From NCBI GenBank assembly GCA_030695565.1, contig JAUYRZ010000064.1, positions 1 to 64,000 of the forward strand: a DNA stretch of 64,000 nucleotides, written 5' to 3'. The stretch's first letter is position 1, and each line of letters begins with the position of its first letter. The DNA comes from Archangium sp. GTDB taxonomy: Bacteria; Myxococcota; Myxococcia; Myxococcales; Myxococcaceae. Shown here one piece after another: positions 14,420 to 52,271 of the stretch. The position numbers were made by a program, and so were the translations under genes. The notes beneath the pieces were generated by a model. The model searched no databases and was not told the origin of the DNA. It saw nothing but the letters and a program-made list of their open reading frames with translations.

Positions 14420-15262
14420 CTACTTCGGCGCCTCCAACTCAGTCCGCACGTCCCACAGCTCGGGAAAGAACGTGAGCCCCAGCGCGCGCTGCAGGAACGT
14501 CACCCCCGACGAACCACCGGTGCCCATCTTGAGGCCGATGATCCGGTGCACCGTCTTCATGTGCCGGAATCGCCACAGCTGAAACCGCTCCTCCATGTCG
14601 ACCAGCTTCTCGGCCATCTCGTAGGCGACCCAGTTGGTCTCGGGGTGTTCGTACACCTGCTTGAACACCCGCATCACCTGCTCGCTCTTCACGTAGGGCA
14701 AGGTGAAGTCGCGGTTCACGTGATCTTCGGGCACCGCGAGCCCCTTGCGGTGCAGGTAGCGCAAGAACTCGTCGTACAGACTGGGCTGCTCCAAACGCGC
14801 CTTGAGCCAGGCGTGAATCTCGGGCGAGTCGCGGTGCGGCAGAATCGCGTTCGCGTCTTTGTTGCCCAACATGAACTCGATGGCCCGGTACTGGTAGCTC
14901 TGGAACCCCGAGCTCTTGCCCAGCGCGTCGCGGAAGGTGAGGTACTCGGAGGGCGTCATGGTCTCCAACACCGCCCACTGCTCGAAGAGCATGCGTTGAA
15001 TGTGCGCCACCCGCGCGAAGATCTTGAAGCTCGAAGAGAGGTCGTCGCGCTTCACGCACTCGAGCGCGCGGTCGAGCTCGTGCAGCATCAGCTTCATCCA
15101 CAGCTCGCTGGTCTGATGCTGAATGATGAACAACATCTCGTCGTGTTGCGGCGAGCGCGGGCTCTGCGCGTCGAGCAAGCGGTCGAGCTGGAGATAACCG
15201 GCGTAGGTCTCCTGGCGCGCCAGATCGACGTGAATGCCCTTCTCGAGTTCGCGCTGAGTCAT
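14420..15262 (-). CDS. kynA: Tryptophan 2,3-dioxygenase
   Basis: 280 residues from the ATG at 15262. This haem enzyme opens the indole ring of L-tryptophan to N-formylkynurenine, the first step of the kynurenine pathway. Family motifs are plentiful: TYAGYLQLDRLLDAQ, HDEMLFIIQHQTSELWMKL with the active-site His, ESSGFQS-like GKSSGFQSYQYR, the haem-ligand region FRHMKTVHRIIG, and GTGGSSGVTFL. The family length is typical. No other kynurenine genes are next to it, so it may feed a dispersed pathway. An intrinsic terminator of the upstream minus-strand gene separates the two transcripts. Confidence 0.97.
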   Translation of the reverse strand: MTQRELEKGIHVDLARQETYAGYLQLDRLLDAQSPRSPQHDEMLFIIQHQTSELWMKLMLHELDRALECVKRDDLSSSFKIFARVAHIQRMLFEQWAVLETMTPSEYLTFRDALGKSSGFQSYQYRAIEFMLGNKDANAILPHRDSPEIHAWLKARLEQPSLYDEFLRYLHRKGLAVPEDHVNRDFTLPYVKSEQVMRVFKQVYEHPETNWVAYEMAEKLVDMEERFQLWRFRHMKTVHRIIGLKMGTGGSSGVTFLQRALGLTFFPELWDVRTELEAPK

Positions 15263-15288
15263 GCACCACTTCTGCGCGACTGCCGGGC

Positions 15289-15324
15289 AAAAGAAAAGCG
15301 GCCCGGACACGATGTCCAGGCCGC
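15289..15324 (-). terminator. Rho-independent terminator downstream of the AT-hook/Cys-motif gene
   Basis: A 12-bp stem with one mismatch and a 3-base loop (15298-15324, GCGGCCCGGACA / TGTCCAGGCCGC). On the minus strand it is followed at once by a T-rich run (complement of AAAAGAAAA at 15289-15297). It therefore terminates the minus-strand transcript from 15832 and insulates kynA. Confidence 0.8.
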
Positions 15325-18645: not shown

Positions 18646-19209
18646 ATGAGGCTGGCCGTGACGGGCCCTCCCATTTCCTCTACAGCGTCACCCGTGCTCG
18701 ACCTCTCTCCTCAGCAGCGTGACGTCGTCGAGCTCCTGCTTCAAGCGCACATCGAAGCGCGCCAGGTGGTCTCCATGGCGGAGTCGCTCTCGGGTGGCAG
18801 CGCCACGTGTGGTGCGCAGGAGACCGCGACGACCATCGCGGATCACGTGGAGTGGATGCTCCCGCTCCACGGTGATGACGAAGACCAGTCGGTGGCGCCG
18901 CGGTTGATGGGACGTCACCGCGTGGTCGACGACGCGCTGGGAAAGATGAAGCTGCAGCACCTCTCGCTGGACGCACCGATGGCGCGGGTGCGCATGCTGT
19001 GCATGATTTTGTCGCGCGACATTTCGCGGTTGCACGCGCTGCGCTTCGAGCTGGGCGCGGCGGTGAAGGATCTCCGCGAGCGGCTGGCCGAACACCACGC
19101 GCTGGAAGAGTCGATCGTCTTCCCCGCGCTCAAGCGGCTGCTCTACGTGGACGAGCTCGAGTCGATCGGCATGGAGATGAGAGCGCGCCGGCTCGCTGCC
19201 GCGGCTTAG
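18646..19209 (+). CDS. Hemerythrin-like HHE-domain protein
   Basis: 187 residues, all-helical. Likely metal ligands are spread as in hemerythrin-type four-helix bundles: His in AHIEARQVV, HVEW and LPLHGDDEDQ, LHALRFELG, and the signature EHHALEESIVFPAL near the C-terminus (HHxxEE). Such proteins bind a di-iron centre and sense or store oxygen or NO in the cytoplasm. The annotated ATG gives a ~20-residue disordered leader; a later start is possible. It is convergent with the 150-aa gene, their stop codons overlapping by 4 bases. Confidence 0.7.
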   Translation: MRLAVTGPPISSTASPVLDLSPQQRDVVELLLQAHIEARQVVSMAESLSGGSATCGAQETATTIADHVEWMLPLHGDDEDQSVAPRLMGRHRVVDDALGKMKLQHLSLDAPMARVRMLCMILSRDISRLHALRFELGAAVKDLRERLAEHHALEESIVFPALKRLLYVDELESIGMEMRARRLAAAA

Positions 19210-19658
19210 TCCCCGAAGAGCCGGCGCAAGGCGGGCGCGTTGCGCGCTTCGTCGAGCAGCCGGCCCGAGACCAGCTTCTTCAAGACGTCGCGCTCGAGGG
19301 CCCAGACCTGGAGCATGTCTTCCCAGTCGCCCAGCACCACCAGCAGCTTCACGCGCGGCTCTTCACGGAAGAGATCGTTCAGGTTGTGCACGAGCGCTTC
19401 GACGTTCTCGAGCTCCCACTTCTCGACCAGCTCGCCCCAGCCGATCTCCATCACCAGCGGCGTCGAGGTGCGCACGTCGAGCACCTTGAAGGTGGTCACG
19501 CCCATCGCGAAGGTGAGCGCGCCGACGACTTCATCCGGAGTGGCCTGCAGCGAAATGCTCAGGCCGCCGACCAGCCGGCCCTGGTGACAACACTTGAGCA
19601 GGCTCTTCGGGAGCGGCCCGCGGCCCTGGGTCAGTCCCAGCTCACGTACCTGTTTCAT
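19206..19658 (-). CDS. Unknown 150-aa protein coupled to the ADA-SLOG-Nudix gene
   Basis: 150 residues, soluble, no signal. It begins after ATGA overlap with the stop of the three-domain enzyme, so the two are translated together. Visible features are a hydrophobic core alternating beta and helix (LVGGLSISLQATPDEVV, VTTFKVLDVRTSTPLVMEIG, VKLLVVLGDWEDMLQVWALE), an LGDWEDM motif and a C-terminal basic helix (NAPALRRLFGD). The pattern suggests a small alpha/beta domain. I do not recognise the family; given the tight linkage it may be a regulatory or substrate-supplying partner of the enzyme. Confidence 0.75.
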   Translation of the reverse strand: MKQVRELGLTQGRGPLPKSLLKCCHQGRLVGGLSISLQATPDEVVGALTFAMGVTTFKVLDVRTSTPLVMEIGWGELVEKWELENVEALVHNLNDLFREEPRVKLLVVLGDWEDMLQVWALERDVLKKLVSGRLLDEARNAPALRRLFGD

Positions 19659-22261
19659 CGGGACTCCAGCGCGAGGGCGAGCAGCTTCGCGTGATCGAAC
19701 GCGAGCCGGGGTGGCAACGCGTCGAGGGGGAACCAGCGGGCGTCGGAGGCATCATCGCCACCGGCCACCGCGCGGTGCTCGTTCAGGGTGACGCGGTAGA
19801 GCCAGGTGCGGCTCCAGGCAGCGGGGCTGTCTCGTTCATCGCGGCCGCCGCCTTCCACCTGCGCGACGAGCTGAACTCGGTCTCGCCACGCGCTCACGTC
19901 GAGGCCGGCTTCTTCATGGAGTTCACGGAGGGCGGTGTCGAGCGGTTGTTCAGCGTCGAACGTGAACGGTGAACCCCGAGCGGCATGGGTGTTCACGAAG
20001 CCGCCGGGGAGGGCCCACTGCCCTGGCTCCGCAGCCGCATCGTCATGCCGGCGAATCAGCAACACCTTCTCTCCCTCTCCCTGCGAAGCGGGGAGAGGGT
20101 CGGGGTGAGGGGCCACCGCGAACACCACCACATCCACCGTGGGGTTCACGCCGGGATGCCAGAACGGAGCAAACGCCGAGCGAAAGAACGCGCGATCATC
20201 CAAACGAAGCAACGCCTCGCGAGCAGAGTGAAATGCTCGACTCGGAACCTGCGCCGCATGCCGCCCACTCGCGCCATCCACGCCTCCGAGCGCCAGGTAC
20301 CTCAGCCTCAGATTCGCAGCCGCACGCAGCTCGTCGTGCACCACGTTGCCGCCACCGAAGAACAAGCACAACGCGTCGAGTTCCTTCATCAAGCCGTAGA
20401 GCTTCGGAGCCTTCTCGTGCGGCGTGGCCGCGAGAAGAATCGCCTCCGTCGGGCCGGGGCCGAGATCAACAGGGTCGGTCGCTTCGACGATGGTGGCGAG
20501 CACGCGGCGTTTGTGGAGCAGCGCGAGGCGGTGCACTTCGCCTTCGACGCCGGCGGAGGTGCCCCCGGTGATGAGCAGGGTGTCTTCGGGAAGTGAAGGG
20601 ATCAGCTCTTCGAGGACGTTGATGATCTTCGTTCGGCTTTCGGCGGAAGAACTGGCCCAGGCTTGTTTCCAGGCTCCGGCGATACAAAGGCCCCTCACCC
20701 CGACCCTCTCCCCGCTTCGCAGGGAGAGGGAGACGATGTTCAGCTGCTCGAGCCTCGCGAGCAGTTGAGTGCTTCGACTGGCGCGCGCCTTCTCGTTTCT
20801 CGCGGCCACTTGTGGCGTGTACGCGCGGGGCGGCGGCGCTGGCGGCACGGTGAACGTGGCCGGCTTCGCTGAGGTCACTTCGAGATCCCTCGCGAGGTAC
20901 GCACGCTCGGTTTCCCACAGCGTTCGGAGGTGCGCGTCGCTCAGCCCCGCAAGCCGCGCTGCTCGCAGCTCATCACCCGGCGTGGTCCCGTACAGCCCCG
21001 GTCCATCCGTCCCCAACACACACCGCACACCCGCCTCGAGCAACTGCACCAGCGGTACTTCATTCGTCGAGTGAAGGTTGTTGAGCGTGAAGTTCGAGGT
21101 CAGGTTCACCTCGACGTACGCACCCGACGCCCTCAACAAAGCGACCGCCTCATCACTCCCATACAGCGCGTGCCCGATGCGCAGCGTGACGTCGCAGCCC
21201 GCCACCGCCTCGCACGCCAGCCGTACGTTCTCCGGAAACGCCGGGTTCTCCCCCGCATGCACGCGGATGACGAAACCGGGCCGATGCGCACCCGCCCACT
21301 TCGCCACGCGCGTGATTCGCTCCTGAAAGGCGCGCGTCGAGTTGGTCTCGTGGCCCATCCAATCCACGCCCACCAGGTCTCGGCAGCCGCCCAGCGTCTC
21401 CAGCCGGGAGAGCAGATCGTCATCCCACTCCGGATCATTGTGCCGGGAGATCGCGGTGAGAAATCGCAGGGTGAGCCCGTGCTTCGCTTTCGCGCGCGCC
21501 GCACCTTCGATGGCCGCCTCCAGCCAATCGCTCCGGTACAGATCGCCGATGGACAGCTCCACGTGCCGCACGCCCATCGCCGCGTAGTCGGAGGCCACCG
21601 CATCGAGCAGCGAGGGGAACAGCTTCAGCGACTTGGTGAACGGCCCGCGGAGCCGGTACGCGCGCTCCATGTCGCGGAAGGTGCTCTGGCGATCCGCAGG
21701 CAAACAGAGCGCAGCGCGAAGCTTCTGCAGGTGCGCGGGTTCGAGCGAAGAGAGCGGCACCTCGCCGCTCAGCCCGCGAAGGCCTGCGTCTTCCAACAAC
21801 GCCGCGTCGAGACCGAGCCCGTGCGCGAGGCCCGTGTCGATCAACGTCTCCCCGCGTGGGCAACCCGCGAAGTGCGTGTGCAGATCAGTCAGCGGTGAAT
21901 CGTCGCGCCCGGAGTGCGCCCGCGGATGGGGAAACCCGGTCTCGGCCAGGTAGCGGAGCTCGAAGGGACACAACGGGGTGAGGGTGGTGAGCGTCTGGCC
22001 GTTCCACCGCGCGAGCTCGGTCTCTCCCAGCTTGAACGTGCCCGTGCCGCGAAACACACCCGAGGCATCGCCGTGAACGCCCTCGAGGGTCACGTGCTCA
22101 CGCAGCCGGGTGAGCGTTCGCGGCGGAACATCGAGCTCGGCCGACGAGCCCAGCGAGAGCCCCTTCGGGTTCGCGTTCCAGCGCAGGGTGCCCTCGCGAT
22201 CGATTGGCCAACTCACGGGCGCGAACGAAACACGAAGGGCGGCACGGAAGAAGTTCCGCAC
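19655..22261 (-). CDS. Three-domain enzyme: adenosine-deaminase-like, SLOG-like and Nudix hydrolase
   Basis: 868 residues. An unknown N-terminal region (1-120) is followed by an adenosine-deaminase-type amidohydrolase (~124-465) with HTHFAG, RVHAGENP (catalytic Glu), RIGHALYG, NLTSN and GTDGPG, so the zinc and base-binding residues look intact. Residues ~525-680 form a Rossmann-like domain of SLOG/LOG type (TLLITGGTSAGVEGEVHRLA and LFFGGGNVVHDEL). Residues ~705-868 are a Nudix hydrolase (LLIRRHDDAAAEPGQWALPG then RELHEEAGLD). Such a set would act on nucleotides or nucleotide-derived signals: deaminate, bind and hydrolyse. The linker (510-525) and part of the Nudix first hairpin (716-731) are translated dispersed repeats. 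The substrate is inferred only. Confidence 0.85.
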   Translation of the reverse strand: MRNFFRAALRVSFAPVSWPIDREGTLRWNANPKGLSLGSSAELDVPPRTLTRLREHVTLEGVHGDASGVFRGTGTFKLGETELARWNGQTLTTLTPLCPFELRYLAETGFPHPRAHSGRDDSPLTDLHTHFAGCPRGETLIDTGLAHGLGLDAALLEDAGLRGLSGEVPLSSLEPAHLQKLRAALCLPADRQSTFRDMERAYRLRGPFTKSLKLFPSLLDAVASDYAAMGVRHVELSIGDLYRSDWLEAAIEGAARAKAKHGLTLRFLTAISRHNDPEWDDDLLSRLETLGGCRDLVGVDWMGHETNSTRAFQERITRVAKWAGAHRPGFVIRVHAGENPAFPENVRLACEAVAGCDVTLRIGHALYGSDEAVALLRASGAYVEVNLTSNFTLNNLHSTNEVPLVQLLEAGVRCVLGTDGPGLYGTTPGDELRAARLAGLSDAHLRTLWETERAYLARDLEVTSAKPATFTVPPAPPPRAYTPQVAARNEKARASRSTQLLARLEQLNIVSLSLRSGERVGVRGLCIAGAWKQAWASSSAESRTKIINVLEELIPSLPEDTLLITGGTSAGVEGEVHRLALLHKRRVLATIVEATDPVDLGPGPTEAILLAATPHEKAPKLYGLMKELDALCLFFGGGNVVHDELRAAANLRLRYLALGGVDGASGRHAAQVPSRAFHSAREALLRLDDRAFFRSAFAPFWHPGVNPTVDVVVFAVAPHPDPLPASQGEGEKVLLIRRHDDAAAEPGQWALPGGFVNTHAARGSPFTFDAEQPLDTALRELHEEAGLDVSAWRDRVQLVAQVEGGGRDERDSPAAWSRTWLYRVTLNEHRAVAGGDDASDARWFPLDALPPRLAFDHAKLLALALESR
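20070..20114. repeat. Dispersed palindromic repeat, in-frame inside the Nudix domain
   Basis: A 45-bp copy identical, in inverted orientation, to the one at 20689-20733. Read on the minus strand it encodes VAPHPDPLPASQGEGE, placed between Nudix strands 1 (VDVVVFAV) and 2 (KVLLIRR). The PHPDPLP-type peptide is familiar to me as the translation of this kind of repeat in other GC-rich genomes. Confidence 0.85.
20689..20733. repeat. Dispersed palindromic repeat, in-frame between ADA and SLOG domains
   Basis: A 45-bp perfect inverted copy of 20070-20114. Read on the minus strand it encodes VSLSLRSGERVGVRGL, placed just before the first strand of the SLOG-like domain (LCIAG). The internal palindrome is CCCTCTCC...GGGAGAGGG. 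Confidence 0.85.
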
Positions 22262-40606: not shown

Positions 40607-41854
40607 ATGTCCCGAACCCTCACCCTGATCTCACTGTCCGCGCTGCTGGGCGCGTGCGGAATGAACCCGGCTGGAGAAGTCGATGGCGGCGCTGGCGGGG
40701 GCACCGCGACCGGCGGAGGCACTGCCGCGATGGGTGGTGGTTCGGCGACGGGCGGCGGCACCGCGACGGGTGGCGGTTCGGCGACCGGTGGCGGCACCTC
40801 GACGGGTGGCGGCACCTCGACGGGTGGCGGTCCGGCGACGGGTGGCGGCTCGGCGACGGGTGGCGGCTCGGCGACGGGTGGCGGTTCGGCGACCGGTGGC
40901 GGCTCGGCGACCGGTGGCGGTTCGGCGACGGGTGGCGGCAGCGCGACGGACGGCGGCACGGCGACCGGTGGCGGCAGCGCGACGGCCGACGCAGGCACCG
41001 TGGTGCGTTTCGTGGCGATCGGCGACACCGGCAAAGGCAATCCAGATCAGTCTCTGGTCGGCGCCTCCATCGGCACCGTCTGCGCGGCCCAGGGCTGCGA
41101 CTTCGTGGTGCTGCTGGGCGACAACTTCTATCCGAGCGGCGTCACCTCCACGACCGACTCGCAGTGGCAGACGGCCTTCGTCGCTCCCTACGCCACGGTG
41201 AACGCGCCCTTCTACGTGGCCCTGGGCAATCACGACTACGGCGGGGAGGGCCTCGGCTACGACTTCGCCAGGGGGCAGAACGAGATCGACTACTCCGCGG
41301 TGAACCCCAAGTGGCGCCTGCCCGCTTTCCACTACAAGTGGGCCATTAGCAACGTGGAGTTCTTCGTCGCCGACACCAACCGCTCGATGTTCGCCGCCGA
41401 CAGCACCATGCGCTCCGACTTCGACACCTGGATTCCCGGCTCGAGCGCCTTGTGGAAGATCGTCTTCGCGCACCACCCCTACAAGTCGAACGGCAAACAC
41501 GGCAACGCGGGCAGCTACGACGGGGTTCCGTTCATCCCGCTGGTCAATGGCGCGAACGTGAAGTCATTCGTCGAGGCGCGGGTGTGCGGGCGCGCTGACT
41601 TCTACATCACGGGCCACGACCACAATAATCAGTGGATGCAGGACACCTGCTCGCGCTCCGGCTCCACGCTGCAGACCCAGCTGATCGTCTCGGGAGGCGC
41701 CGCGTCGACCACCCCGCTCGAGGGCAACAACCCCACGTATTACGAGAGCGACGAGCTGGGTTTTACGTACATCGTGATCAACGGCCGCAGCTTCACGGCC
41801 AGCTTCTACGATGCCCAGGGCGTTCAGCGGTTCACGCGCACCGTCACGAAGTGA
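40607..41854 (+). CDS. Secreted metallophosphoesterase lipoprotein
   Basis: 415 residues. A lipoprotein signal (LISLSALLGAC) is followed by a low-complexity Gly/Ser/Thr/Ala linker (~28-126), then a calcineurin-like phosphoesterase with all five metal-site motifs: AIGDTGKGN, LLGDNFY, LGNHDYG, FAHHPYKS and GHDHNNQW. This is the purple-acid-phosphatase-like class, so it would hydrolyse phosphoesters outside the cytoplasm. The gene starts 10 bases after the protease stop and is likely co-transcribed with it. The linker is encoded by DNA repeats that could vary in length. Confidence 0.92.
   Translation: MSRTLTLISLSALLGACGMNPAGEVDGGAGGGTATGGGTAAMGGGSATGGGTATGGGSATGGGTSTGGGTSTGGGPATGGGSATGGGSATGGGSATGGGSATGGGSATGGGSATDGGTATGGGSATADAGTVVRFVAIGDTGKGNPDQSLVGASIGTVCAAQGCDFVVLLGDNFYPSGVTSTTDSQWQTAFVAPYATVNAPFYVALGNHDYGGEGLGYDFARGQNEIDYSAVNPKWRLPAFHYKWAISNVEFFVADTNRSMFAADSTMRSDFDTWIPGSSALWKIVFAHHPYKSNGKHGNAGSYDGVPFIPLVNGANVKSFVEARVCGRADFYITGHDHNNQWMQDTCSRSGSTLQTQLIVSGGAASTTPLEGNNPTYYESDELGFTYIVINGRSFTASFYDAQGVQRFTRTVTK
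40690..40985 (+). repeat. Imperfect 18-bp tandem repeats encoding a Gly/Ser/Thr linker
   Basis: About 15 copies of a unit close to GCGACGGGTGGCGGCTCG, encoding A-T-G-G-G-S/T. The copies differ by synonymous and Ser/Thr changes. This lies inside the phosphoesterase gene, just after the lipobox, as is common in myxobacterial lipoproteins. Confidence 0.9.
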
Positions 41855-47421: not shown

Positions 47422-50400
47422 GGCGTGACGGTCATCACTCCGAGCTGGTTCACGTTGAAGTCGAGACCCGCGTTTGCGCCCGCTCCATCGAGGTCGCAGT
47501 ACGTCCAGTTGGTGCCGTCGCGAGAGACGCGGCCGGTGTAGCCGTACGTGCCTGCTGCGGGCGCGGTGAACAGGCCCTGATACTCATCATCGTTGCCGAC
47601 CTGAACGTTGAACGAGGCAGGAACCCAGGTGAACCCGGCAGTGGTGGAGGGGTTGACCGCCGCGGGGCCAAAGCCCACCTCGGTGCGGATGGAGCTCGCG
47701 GGGCCGGGAGCGGCGGTCACGCCGGTCTCGAAGGCGCGGGTGTAGATGAGCCCTGAGGACGCGCCGGCCGCGACCGAGATGGTCGAGGGGAACTGAAGGA
47801 CGCAGAAGTCGAGTTCGGCGACGGTGTTCGTCTCGTTGGCCGTGCACGCGCAAACGACGGGAGTCGTCGAGCTGTTGCGCGGCGAGGGAGCGGCCGCGGT
47901 GAAGTCGGCCCCATTCACGTTGGTGTCAGCGCAGCCCGCGCCTCCGCGGAACACGGCCGTCGTATTCGAGGGCGCGGCCGTCGGGGTGCCGCCTTCGGAG
48001 CAGTTGGCGGTCGAGCCATAGCCGACGAAATCGAGTGATCCGGGGAGCGCGCTTGCACAGACCGTCGATGACAACGGAGCGACCGTCGGCGTGAGGGCGA
48101 CACGGCCTGCCGTCGCGGACATCGCAATCGAGGGCGTCCACGCGAAGTCCGGGACGATCGGAGCGATACCCGTTCCGGTGCCCATGCTCACCAAGAAGTA
48201 GCCACCTCCCGGCACGGTGACGTTGGGCAAAGGAACGACCGAGAAGGCGCCGGTGCCCGCTGCCGAGGCGTACTGCAATGCCATCCCGCTCAACGAGATC
48301 GGCGTCGAGCCGGGGTTGTGCAGCTCCACGTAGTCGGCGGTGAACGTGCCGCTCGCGCTGCCTGCGCCTCCGTACACCTGACTGATCATCAGCGAGGCAC
48401 CACACGGGCCATCGGTCGCGATCGTGAAGCCGTTGGCCTGGGTGAAAGTCGCGGCCAGCTGAACCTGAGCGGAGCTACGCGCGGGCGGGGTCACACGCAG
48501 CTTGTACGTGGCCAGCGGCGTGAGGGCAGCGCCGGGCGCCAGCGTGGCGACGGTGTTGCCGAGCGTCATCGTGGGAGCCGCCGCGGCGAAGCCGATACAC
48601 GTGGCGAAGTCGTCGTTGGAGAGCTGAAGCGTTCCCGTGCACGCGCCGGCGCTGGTCTGCGCGATCAACGAGGTGACGTCCATCGCGGTGTTGAACGTGA
48701 AGCTGACCGGTGCCCCGGCCCGCACTCCCGAGGTTCCATTTCCAGGCAGCGCTGCAGTGACCGTCGGAGCGGGCACGACCACGGTGACGGTCGTCGAACC
48801 GGTGATGCCCGTGCGGGTCACGTCGATCCGCGAAGTGCCCGCGGTGACGCCGGTCACCACACCCGTCGAGGCGACAGTGGCAACCGCGGTGGTCTGAGAG
48901 ACCCACGCCAAGCCGGTCGTGAAAATCTGCGTGGTGTTGTCGCTGAACGTGCCCGTGGCAGTCAGCGCGACGGTGCTGCCCGTGTTGACGGTGGGGTTTG
49001 CCGGAGTCACCGCGATGGAGACCAGCTCTGCCGCAGTGCAGTTCACCGTCTGGTCATCACTGATCGCCCCGAGCGTGACGGTGACCGTCGCGGTACCGAC
49101 CGCGAGGGAGGTCACCAGCCCTGAGCTCGAGACCGACGCGGTGGCCGAGGGCGACACCGACCAGGTCACCGATGAAGTGAGATCCGCCTGGCTCGCATCC
49201 GAGTACGTGCCGGTCGCGGTGAGCTGCGCCGTGCGGCCCAACGGCAGTGCAGCCGGAGCGCCGGTGATGATGAGCGCCACCAATGAGGGCGGCGTCACGT
49301 CGAGCGTGGTGCTGCCCACCACGCTGCCCTGCGTGGCGATCACCGTGGTGCTGCCCACTTCGACCGCAGTGGCCAGGCCTGCGCTGCCCGAGAGGTTGCT
49401 GATGGTCGCCGTCGCCGGAGTACCCGTGCTCCACGAGACCTGCGTGGTGATCACCTGCGTGCTCGAGTCGCTGTAGGTGCCCGTCGCGACGTACTGCTGC
49501 GTGCGCCCGCGCGCGATGGAAGCCGCCGCCGGGGTGACCGCGATGGAGACCAACGTCGCGCTGGCGACCGTCACCGTGACCACGGTCGATCCCGAAACCG
49601 AACCGGCCGTCGCGCTGATGGTGGAGCTGCCAGCAGCGACCGCGGTGGCCACACCTTCTGAACCCGCCGCGTTGGAGATGCCCACCGCCGCCGTGGCCGA
49701 CGACGCCCAGGTCACCTGCGTGGTGATGATCGCAGTGCTCGCATCGGAATACGTGCCCGTCGCGATGAACTGCTGCGTGGCCCCGGCCGCGAGCGTCGGG
49801 GTCGACGGCGTGACCGCGATGCTGACCAGCGCCGCCGGGCCCACCGTCAAGGTGGCCTGGCCCGTGACGGAGCCCAACGTCGCGGAGATGACAGATGAAC
49901 CTTCGGTGAGCGCGGTCGCCAGACCCGTGCTCGAGACAGAAGCGACGGCCGGGGTGGCCGAACTCCACGTCACCTGAGTGGTGAGCACCTGCGTGCTCGC
50001 GTCCGAGTACGTGCCGGTGGCGACGAGGTTGGCGGTGCGCCCGCGAGGAAGCGAAGCCGGGACGCTCACGGCGATCGACACGAGCGTCGCGTTGGTCACG
50101 GTCAGGGTGGTGTTGCCGGTGACGGCCCCCAGCGTGGCGATGACGGTGCTGTTGCCAGCGGTCAGCGCGGTGACCAGACCTTCACTGCCCGAGGCGTTGC
50201 TGGCGGTGGCGACCGCGGGCGTGCCCGTCGTCCAGGTCACCTGCGTGGTGAGGTCCTGCGTGCTGGAGTCCGAGAACGTACCGGTCGCGGTGAACTGCCG
50301 GGTGAAGCCCGCGGCCACCGAAGGCGACGCCGGGGTGACGGCGATCGAGGTGAGCTCGGCCGGAGTGACCTCGACGAACCGGCCGCCAGAGACGTTCCCC

Positions 50401-52271
50401 AGCGTCGCGGTGACGGTGGTGACGCCCACGCCCACGGCGGTGAGCAGGCCGCGCGAGCCGGCGGCATTCGAGATGGTCGCCACGCTCAGGGGCAACGAAT
50501 CCCACGAGACGCTCTGGGTGAGGTCCTGCGTGGAGTTGTCGGTGTAGACGCCGATCGCCGCCAGCTGGAGCGTGCGCCCGCGCGCCACCGTGGCGACCAT
50601 CGGGGTGACGTCGATGTGATCGAGCTGCAGGGAGGTCACGGTGACCGTGGTGTTGTCGGTGATGGTCCCCAGCGTGGCGGTCACAGTCGAAGTGCCCACG
50701 GCGACCGCGGTGAGCAGGCCGTGACTGCCCGCGGCGTTCGAGATGGTCGCGAAGGCGGGCGTGCCGGTGGACCAGGTCACCGAGGTGGTCACGTTCTGCA
50801 TCGAGCCATCCGACAGCAGGCCCATCGCGGTGAAGGCGCGGGTCTGGCCGCGGGGCACCGAAGGCGCGGTCGGCGAGATCCGCAGGCCGGTGAGGCTCGC
50901 GGCGGTCACCGTCAGCGGGGTGCTGCCGCTGATGGTGCCGCTGGTCGCGGTGAGGGTGGTGCTGCCTGCGGTCAGCGCCGTGACCAGGCCGGTGGACCCG
51001 GCCGCGTTGCTGATGCTGGCCACCGCGGGGGTGCTGCTGCTCCAGGTGACGCTGGTGGTGAGGTCCTGCGTGGTGGTGTCGGTGAAGAGCCCCGTCGCGG
51101 TGAAGGGGAAGGTCAGGCCGATCGACAGCGTGGAGGCCGCCGGGGTGACGGAGATCGACGCCAGCTCAGCGGGCGAGACCGTGACGAGCGTGCCGCCGGT
51201 GATGGGCCCGAAGGCCGCCGAGATGATCGAGGTGCCCAGCGCGACCGAGGTGACCAGGCCGCCGCTGGACACCGTGGCGTGGGCGAGCGTGCCCGAGCTC
51301 CAGGTGGCCTGCGTGGTGAGGTCTTCGGTGGTGTTGTCGGAGAACCGGCCGGTGGCGGTGAGCTGAAGGGTGAGGCCCAGCGGAATCGAAGGCGCGGGCG
51401 GCGTGACTTCGATGGCCGTGAGCACCGCGGCGGTGACGGTGATGGTGGTGCTGCCGGCCACACCATTGAGCGTCGCCGTGACGATGGAGTCGCCGAGGTC
51501 GACGGCGGTCGCGAGGCCGTCAGCGTCGACCGTCACCAGCGCGTTCGACGAGGTCCACGCCACCTGGGTCGAGAGATCCTGCGTGGTGCTGTCGGAGAAG
51601 CGGCCCGTCGCCACCAGCTGCTGCTTGATGCCCCGGGGAAGCGAAGGCAGCGCCGGCGTGACGTCGATGGCGATCAAGGTGGCCGTGCTGACCGTGACCG
51701 TCAGGGTGCCGCTCACGCCCGCCTTGCTCGCGGTCACCTGGGTCGAACCGCCCGCGAGCGCGGAGACCAGGCCCGTGGAAGAGACGGTGAGGAGGGTCTG
51801 ATCAGCCGAGCTCCAGGTGGCGTCGGTGAGCGCGGCGGTGGTGCCGTCGCTGAAGATGCCGGTCGCCGTCAGCTGCAGCGTGGTGCCGATGGCGAGCGTG
51901 GGCGAAGCGGGCGTCAGCTCGATGCGCGTCAGGCTCGGGCCCGCGCGGGCCACGATCACCGTCAGGCTGGCGCTCGCGTCGCGCAGCTTCGCGGTGACGA
52001 TGGCGGTGCCCGGAGCGACGCCCTGCAACGCGGCCGTGCCGTCGCCGGTGGAGCTCACCGTGAGCACCGCGTCGTCGCTCGAGGTCCACGTCGCGCCGTT
52101 CGCAGGGCTGGTGGTCGTTCCAGAGCGGACCTGCGCCGTCACGGTGCGCATTTCGCCCGGCGCGAGGGTGAGCGCCGCAGGCGAGAGCTCCAGCGTTTCA
52201 GGCGCGGAAGCGGGGGGGCAGGCAGCCAGCAACATCGACACCGCGGCGACGAAACGAATCGACAAGCGCAT
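47418..52271 (-). CDS. Giant lipoprotein with 13 BIG2 Ig-like repeats and a lamin-tail domain
   Basis: 1617 residues from the ATG at 52271, chosen for its lipoprotein signal (RFVAAVSMLLAAC); the frame also has an ATG at 52307. I count 13 tandem BIG2-type repeats of ~85-95 residues, each opening like L-x-S-I-x-V-T-P...P-x-x-x-x-x-G and continuing TATGxFSDxSTQDLTT...VTW. These are followed by an SbsA-like Ig domain and a lamin-tail-like domain (SLMISQVYGGAGSASGTFTA). It is an extended surface stalk, probably adhesive. Repeats differ in sequence, so they are not a recent expansion. The downstream zinc-finger membrane gene is translationally coupled. Confidence 0.9.
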   Translation of the reverse strand: MRLSIRFVAAVSMLLAACPPASAPETLELSPAALTLAPGEMRTVTAQVRSGTTTSPANGATWTSSDDAVLTVSSTGDGTAALQGVAPGTAIVTAKLRDASASLTVIVARAGPSLTRIELTPASPTLAIGTTLQLTATGIFSDGTTAALTDATWSSADQTLLTVSSTGLVSALAGGSTQVTASKAGVSGTLTVTVSTATLIAIDVTPALPSLPRGIKQQLVATGRFSDSTTQDLSTQVAWTSSNALVTVDADGLATAVDLGDSIVTATLNGVAGSTTITVTAAVLTAIEVTPPAPSIPLGLTLQLTATGRFSDNTTEDLTTQATWSSGTLAHATVSSGGLVTSVALGTSIISAAFGPITGGTLVTVSPAELASISVTPAASTLSIGLTFPFTATGLFTDTTTQDLTTSVTWSSSTPAVASISNAAGSTGLVTALTAGSTTLTATSGTISGSTPLTVTAASLTGLRISPTAPSVPRGQTRAFTAMGLLSDGSMQNVTTSVTWSTGTPAFATISNAAGSHGLLTAVAVGTSTVTATLGTITDNTTVTVTSLQLDHIDVTPMVATVARGRTLQLAAIGVYTDNSTQDLTQSVSWDSLPLSVATISNAAGSRGLLTAVGVGVTTVTATLGNVSGGRFVEVTPAELTSIAVTPASPSVAAGFTRQFTATGTFSDSSTQDLTTQVTWTTGTPAVATASNASGSEGLVTALTAGNSTVIATLGAVTGNTTLTVTNATLVSIAVSVPASLPRGRTANLVATGTYSDASTQVLTTQVTWSSATPAVASVSSTGLATALTEGSSVISATLGSVTGQATLTVGPAALVSIAVTPSTPTLAAGATQQFIATGTYSDASTAIITTQVTWASSATAAVGISNAAGSEGVATAVAAGSSTISATAGSVSGSTVVTVTVASATLVSIAVTPAAASIARGRTQQYVATGTYSDSSTQVITTQVSWSTGTPATATISNLSGSAGLATAVEVGSTTVIATQGSVVGSTTLDVTPPSLVALIITGAPAALPLGRTAQLTATGTYSDASQADLTSSVTWSVSPSATASVSSSGLVTSLAVGTATVTVTLGAISDDQTVNCTAAELVSIAVTPANPTVNTGSTVALTATGTFSDNTTQIFTTGLAWVSQTTAVATVASTGVVTGVTAGTSRIDVTRTGITGSTTVTVVVPAPTVTAALPGNGTSGVRAGAPVSFTFNTAMDVTSLIAQTSAGACTGTLQLSNDDFATCIGFAAAAPTMTLGNTVATLAPGAALTPLATYKLRVTPPARSSAQVQLAATFTQANGFTIATDGPCGASLMISQVYGGAGSASGTFTADYVELHNPGSTPISLSGMALQYASAAGTGAFSVVPLPNVTVPGGGYFLVSMGTGTGIAPIVPDFAWTPSIAMSATAGRVALTPTVAPLSSTVCASALPGSLDFVGYGSTANCSEGGTPTAAPSNTTAVFRGGAGCADTNVNGADFTAAAPSPRNSSTTPVVCACTANETNTVAELDFCVLQFPSTISVAAGASSGLIYTRAFETGVTAAPGPASSIRTEVGFGPAAVNPSTTAGFTWVPASFNVQVGNDDEYQGLFTAPAAGTYGYTGRVSRDGTNWTYCDLDGAGANAGLDFNVNQLGVMTVTP

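Follow-up and report, generated by a model that had tools for sequence, protein, structure and literature searches.

A 64,000-nt stretch of an Archangium sp. contig, referred to here as the window, carries on its minus strand a gene whose product joins an adenosine-deaminase-type barrel, a SLOG domain and a Nudix domain in a single chain. This architecture had been predicted from the letters of the window, and it is borne out by Pfam for the deaminase and Nudix domains and by a fold search for the SLOG domain. Comparison with relatives shows that the three domains of the fusion protein are held together by selection. Three nucleotide-processing domains therefore share one conserved chain, and two of them match the ADP-ribose-handling halves of the channel TRPM2. 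We propose, tentatively and at slightly less than even confidence, that the protein is a soluble enzyme of several domains, binding and breaking down ADP-ribose or a closely related adenine dinucleotide. Molecules of the ADP-ribose type head the list of candidates because the Nudix domain groups with ADP-ribose proteins and the SLOG domain lies nearest to the TRPM-type clade. The fusion enzyme has probably not been studied so far; the literature searched contained nothing relevant on a SLOG-adenosine deaminase or Nudix-deaminase fusion, though a SLOG survey may mention one.

The gene lies at 19655-22261 and is read from 22261 to 19655 as a single open reading frame (ORF) without interruption, 868 aa long from its most upstream GTG. 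On the plus strand, stops close every reading over the same interval. The 868 aa of the original prediction count from this upstream GTG and are probably too many. A second GTG lies at codon 16 (22216), and the start is probably there because both nearest homologues, L008 and L027 (MIWP.. and MWPI..), begin at the equivalent residue. The true protein, starting 15 codons downstream of the first GTG, would then have ~853 aa. Identity to these homologues is 57% in the N-terminal region versus ~80% in the domains. Likewise, pairwise dN/dS is ~0.10-0.27 for each of the three domains, with higher values for the linker and the N-terminal region.

19655..22216, minus strand: probable coding sequence, from the GTG at codon 16 of the 868-aa ORF, as in homologues L008 and L027
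21971..22216, minus strand: N-terminal region, residues 16-97, weakly conserved by identity and beta-rich in model m4e61125b422c

Full-length relatives with the three domains in identical order were found in two same-genus metagenome-assembled genomes (MAGs; L008/L026 and L027, labelled Archangium sp., ~77% identity) and in six of the seven species of a second genus of the Myxococcaceae (L010-L014 and L037, ~39-43% identity). Contig-end fragments of the fusion occur in two further genera (L015, L039). The motifs quoted in the original prediction (HTHFAG/HAGE/GTDGP, GGTSAG...FFGGGN and RELHEE) are all present and nearly invariant across homologues. Since some relatives are MAGs, and repeats inside a reading frame are a conceivable cause of misassembly, one might suspect that the gene is really several housekeeping genes, fused by read-through or by a faulty assembly. 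The homologue survey argues otherwise: chance and assembly error are excluded because the same domain order is conserved across genera, including several independent assemblies and one fusion-bearing genome (G041) that is a single 10.26-Mb contig, and each domain is under purifying selection. We give an artefact practically no weight. Two further matches were set aside, L040 (G183), which in the frame read does not resemble a SLOG domain, and L041 (G189), which contains a stop.

The middle domain is the least obvious of the three by sequence.

20195..20689, minus strand: SLOG domain, residues 525-689 (model m2ba753b351c3, Foldseek, VIA)
20558..20569, minus strand: SLOG motif TGGT, residues 565-568, with T and G invariant or almost so in a 16-sequence alignment
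20330..20356, minus strand: SLOG motif GGGNVVHDE, residues 636-644, aligned to LSDAT GGNITKEE (alignment, profile-profile comparison)

Profile searches recovered the predicted A_deaminase and NUDIX domains but missed the SLOG domain, for which the whole-protein Pfam scan returned no hit at E<1. Middle domains of relatives give weak single-sequence hits, mainly to the SLOG clan (LSDAT_prok, YAcAr, LDcluster4, DprA). One relative, L066, exceeds the LSDAT_prok (PF18171) cut-off at 27.0 vs 25.4 bits, a match that the window protein itself does not have. A middle-domain profile reached 0.07 against LOG At5g11950. A structural model built from 16 family sequences is confident (mean predicted local distance difference test, pLDDT, 94.8; predicted template-modelling score, pTM, 0.90) and matches known SLOG structures. 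Foldseek places it nearest to MoCo carrier (5e-6), LOG (2e-5) and TRPM2/4/8 (~1e-4). VIA-align gives Z 17.7-13.2 for SLOG structures with nearly all 165 residues covered, the MHR1/2 region of TRPM2/4/8 scoring Z 13-15. By its modelled fold and its glycine-rich motifs, the middle domain is thus a member of the SLOG superfamily, as had been predicted.

Within the superfamily, profile-profile comparison favours LSDAT_prok (prob 84, score 41.9, shared GGN(I/V)xxxE motif) over LOG (prob 38, score 31.2), in a comparison with sets drawn from Myxococcota that used shallow profiles, of 5 and 19 sequences. We take this as a preference rather than proof that the window SLOG is closer to the TRPM-type (LSDAT) clade than to LOG. 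LSDAT_prok is the closest SLOG clade by profile; however, to judge by eye, the Myxococcaceae LSDAT proteins compared look membrane-anchored and have no apparent deaminase or Nudix domain. A LOG-like role would allow ADP-ribose to be dismantled fully, the Nudix domain yielding AMP, the SLOG domain releasing adenine and the deaminase converting adenine or AMP. In favour of such a route, a Lys aligns with the Arg of LOG's HxRK motif and the Glu at the second glycine motif is nearly invariant; AMP-bound LOG structures match the fold, and the same deaminase family includes an adenine deaminase (3rys). The LOG signature PGGxGTxxE is nonetheless absent, GGGNVVHDE standing in its place, there is no PF03641 match, and the profile comparison points to the TRPM-type clade. 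Full dismantling is therefore, in our judgement, rather improbable.

The Nudix domain follows directly and was detected by Pfam at residues 729-862 (NUDIX, PF00293, 2.7e-15).

19658..20158, minus strand: Nudix domain (PF00293) at residues 702-868, assigned by profile hits to structures to the ADP-ribose group, NrtR/NadM-Nudix/NUDT9
19910..19927, minus strand: Nudix box core RELHEE, residues 779-784, catalytic residues intact (alignment A6)

The Nudix box GX5EX7REUXEEXGU has canonical spacing in L010-L013, and in the window protein a longer loop precedes the first Glu, leaving RELHEE intact. The family alignment shows GRDxRD, GG(D/S)DA and LAFDH blocks in addition to a REL.EE-type box. Searched against solved structures, a profile of seven family members (A6) matched NrtR-like 2fml (1.4e-15), SoNrtR 3gz8 (3e-12), NadM-Nudix 2qjo (6.5e-10), the TRPM2 chanzyme (2.8e-8), Nematostella TRPM2 (4e-7) and NUDT9 (9e-7). 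AraR, an arabinose-responsive regulator, was also among the matches. The single sequence likewise hits the NrtR and NadM-Nudix models of NCBIfam. Its nearest profile neighbours, NrtR, NadM-Nudix, NUDT9 and TRPM2, place the domain by sequence in the ADP-ribose Nudix group. NrtR and NadM-Nudix are the nearest sequence family, yet the window protein has neither a DNA-binding domain nor a nicotinamide mononucleotide (NMN) adenylyltransferase. Its intact box also sets it apart from MsNrtR, in which changes in the Nudix box abolished hydrolysis and ADP-ribose was retained as a ligand (PMC6800001).

The deaminase domain was detected by Pfam at residues 222-448 (A_deaminase, above the cut-off).

20864..21970, minus strand: adenosine-deaminase-type TIM barrel, residues 98-466 (PF00962, 7e-20; VIA Z 26-31)
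21872..21880, minus strand: HxH metal ligands H128 and H130 (TDLHTHFAG), from alignment with canonical adenosine deaminases L110 and L112
21248..21259, minus strand: HAGE, with metal ligand H335 and catalytic E338, kept in deaminase-bearing homologues
21170..21172, minus strand: catalytic H364 (RIGHALYG), conserved
21005..21007, minus strand: metal ligand D419 (GTDGPGLYGT), conserved

All metal ligands (HxH, His and Asp) and the catalytic Glu and His are present in each of the six aligned family members. Asp19 of mouse adenosine deaminase (ADA) contacts the 5'-OH of adenosine. Beside the HxH motif, the equivalent position is Ala in the window protein and Ala or Gly in all six members, a change that would suit a 5'-phosphorylated substrate. 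The canonical Add equivalog TIGR01430 is not reached (60.8 bits vs a cut-off of 216.55), and the genome encodes a separate canonical adenosine deaminase, as well as a separate LOG, elsewhere. By structure the domain ties among ADAL (N6-methyl-AMP), Cad1 (ATP), AMPD and ADA. Because the Asp19 position is Ala/Gly, the score lies below the Add cut-offs, a canonical enzyme is encoded separately and the structural matches tie, a nucleotide substrate is plausible for this domain.

The match to Cad1 structures (Z 26-29) and to the PADLOC CARF-ADA profile also suggests a defence protein acting alone, as an effector like Cad1/RADAR: a phage-induced signal, sensed by the SLOG domain, would turn on the deaminase to produce inosine nucleotides, and the Nudix domain would serve as an off-switch. 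In Cad1, the enzyme with a ligand-bound CARF domain converts ATP to ITP (PMC11645235). Like Cad1, the window protein joins a deaminase barrel to a Rossmann-type ligand-binding domain; unlike Cad1, it has SLOG instead of CARF, at the barrel's other end, together with an extra Nudix domain and no CRISPR setting. However, the match to human ADAL and to ordinary ADAs is just as good. The only PADLOC match of the window protein is CARF_ADA, through the deaminase part alone (profile 259-560), and this model matches in 178 of 189 Myxococcota genomes, mostly at stand-alone deaminase-sized ORFs. In the neighbourhoods read, no CRISPR genes, defence neighbours or signal-making partner gene were recognised, and across nine loci compared no neighbour was conserved beyond the closest congener, the sole syntenic locus. 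Two scans of 2.9 million viral contigs with SLOG and deaminase profiles found no viral relatives, and among phage and plasmid proteins the hits were all adenosine deaminases and Nudix proteins of the ordinary kind. The phage-defence setting raised in the original prediction thus found no backing, and a defence effector appears quite unlikely to us. In a 635-kb uncultured phage that can be read with TAG=Q (L054:1203-2121), a similar Nudix gene is located 28 bp after a small ORF with the look of a nucleoside-deoxyribosyltransferase-type Rossmannoid protein.

We return to the reading of the protein as an ADP-ribose-type enzyme. TRPM2 has ADP-ribose sites in both MHR1/2 and NUDT9-H, NUDT9 splits ADP-ribose into AMP and ribose-5-phosphate, and the choanoflagellate TRPM2 channel hydrolyses ADP-ribose (PMC11479946). 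The window protein shares with TRPM2 a SLOG domain (MHR1/2) followed by an ADP-ribose-group Nudix domain (NUDT9-H) in one chain and in the same order. It differs in that its 868-aa frame includes no channel or transmembrane part, the SLOG domain directly precedes the Nudix domain, and a deaminase stands in front. By analogy with NUDT9 and the choanoflagellate channel, the Nudix domain would cut the pyrophosphate, turning ADP-ribose into AMP and ribose-5-phosphate. The SLOG domain may serve as a sensor or second site that binds this molecule or the product made from it, like MHR1/2 of TRPM2. The deaminase could turn the adenine nucleotide into its inosine form, thereby removing or inactivating a signal. 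The earlier idea of an enzyme for nucleotides holds in this scheme, its generic modified or cyclic nucleotide being narrowed to ADP-ribose-like candidates, while the proposed sequence of deamination, binding and hydrolysis stays conjectural. A SLOG domain also accompanies other ADP-ribose-processing domains in the viral SLOG-Macro-NADAR proteins of the NAD-ADPr network (PMC9503650). Those proteins are viral whereas the window family is cellular, and adenosine deaminase is absent from that account.

Several observations weigh against ADP-ribose as the ligand. The assignment follows the kinship of the domains, and ligands change within both the Nudix and the SLOG families, as the AraR match illustrates. 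MoCo carrier and LOG have VIA Z-scores that equal or exceed those of TRPM, so the fold does not pick a ligand. The profile comparison that does separate the clades is the shallow one described above, and no mapping of the TRPM2 ADP-ribose contact residues onto the window SLOG was obtained. In addition, the Nudix domain is missing from several relatives in Bdellovibrionota. A more specific version of the proposal, in which the protein is a bacterial cytoplasmic ADP-ribose receptor-enzyme with TRPM2's domain pair and the deaminase adds a novel step from ADP-ribose or AMP to an inosine form in signalling or clearance, is unlikely as it stands. Should ADP-ribose or a cyclic relative prove to be the substrate, the protein would indicate that bacteria signal with ADP-ribose, or clear it, in settings other than the known defence systems. 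If so, the protein would also offer a soluble, channel-free system for studying TRPM-type SLOG ligand binding.

The spread of the family bears on a further alternative. The fusion is patchy, occurring in 10 of 96 family genomes. Relatives of the window SLOG occur with varying strength in 9 of 369 Bdellovibrionota genomes, where the architectures are deaminase-SLOG, deaminase-SLOG with a weaker second SLOG-like part, SLOG-NadD-SLOG and SLOG-SLOG. Outside Myxococcota and Bdellovibrionota, coverage came from scanning 84,980 species for close relatives, which under-samples the spread. Myxococcota and Bdellovibrionota include known predators (predation is known for the groups, not for these genomes), and a salvage or scavenging enzyme could break down adenine nucleotides as nutrition, with the SLOG domain as nucleosidase or carrier. 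This would fit the lack of a conserved operon and the hydrophobic, signal-peptide-like stretches with which many Bdellovibrionota relatives open, as seen by eye without a predictor. It fits less well with the myxobacterial versions, which have no obvious signal peptide, with the canonical adenosine deaminase and LOG already encoded elsewhere in the genome, and with the patchy spread. We therefore regard scavenging as unlikely.

Among these Bdellovibrionota proteins, L071:326-1957 has NadD (nicotinate-nucleotide adenylyltransferase) flanked by two SLOG-like domains. This putative fusion independently ties the SLOG family to NAD metabolism, through a SLOG match that is weak there. Proteins of ~1200 aa (L063:5276-8935, L064:3919-7494 and L066:7981-11748) combine signal-peptide-like starts with at least one SLOG-like domain, and their long N-terminal parts have no Pfam match.

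Two loops of the fusion protein are lengthened by copies of a palindromic repeat.

20692..20730, minus strand: in-frame repeat copy in the deaminase-SLOG linker, encoding ..SLSLRSGERVGVRG.., an exact match to the genome-wide repeat
20073..20111, plus strand: second repeat copy, in opposite orientation, in frame in the first Nudix hairpin, encoding ..APHPDPLPASQGEGE.., also an exact match

The 39-bp repeat, CCCTCTCCC-TGCGAAGC-GGGGAGAGGGTCGGGGTGAGGG, has 138 exact-pattern copies in the genome and none in a reversed control. Both copies in the gene fall on two of the model's lowest-confidence loops, 514-518 and 718-729. Neither site carries the repeat in L008, a near relative. In L027, the linker region has a copy at a different position, and a longer insert in the same Nudix hairpin is bordered by repeat-like arms. 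Most of the other copies sampled lie outside strongly coding-like ORFs by a rough test of GC content at third codon positions (GC3), which also missed the fusion gene itself and therefore undercounts. Palindromic elements inside genes are known from Rickettsia, and the window copies resemble these.

Downstream of the gene, a 150-aa ORF (19206-19658, minus strand) begins with an ATG that overlaps the fusion's stop by 4 nt (ATGA). It has no Pfam or NCBIfam match and no second copy in the genome, and is missing from the syntenic relative G003. About 4.3 kb from the fusion, a minus-strand ORF at 14420-15310 resembles tryptophan 2,3-dioxygenase by eye and is syntenic in the nearest relative, G003; this enzyme catalyses the first step from tryptophan towards NAD. 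Elsewhere, the window contains an 18-bp tandem repeat array at 40673-41032 and a series of 258-276-bp repeats at 48877-51692.

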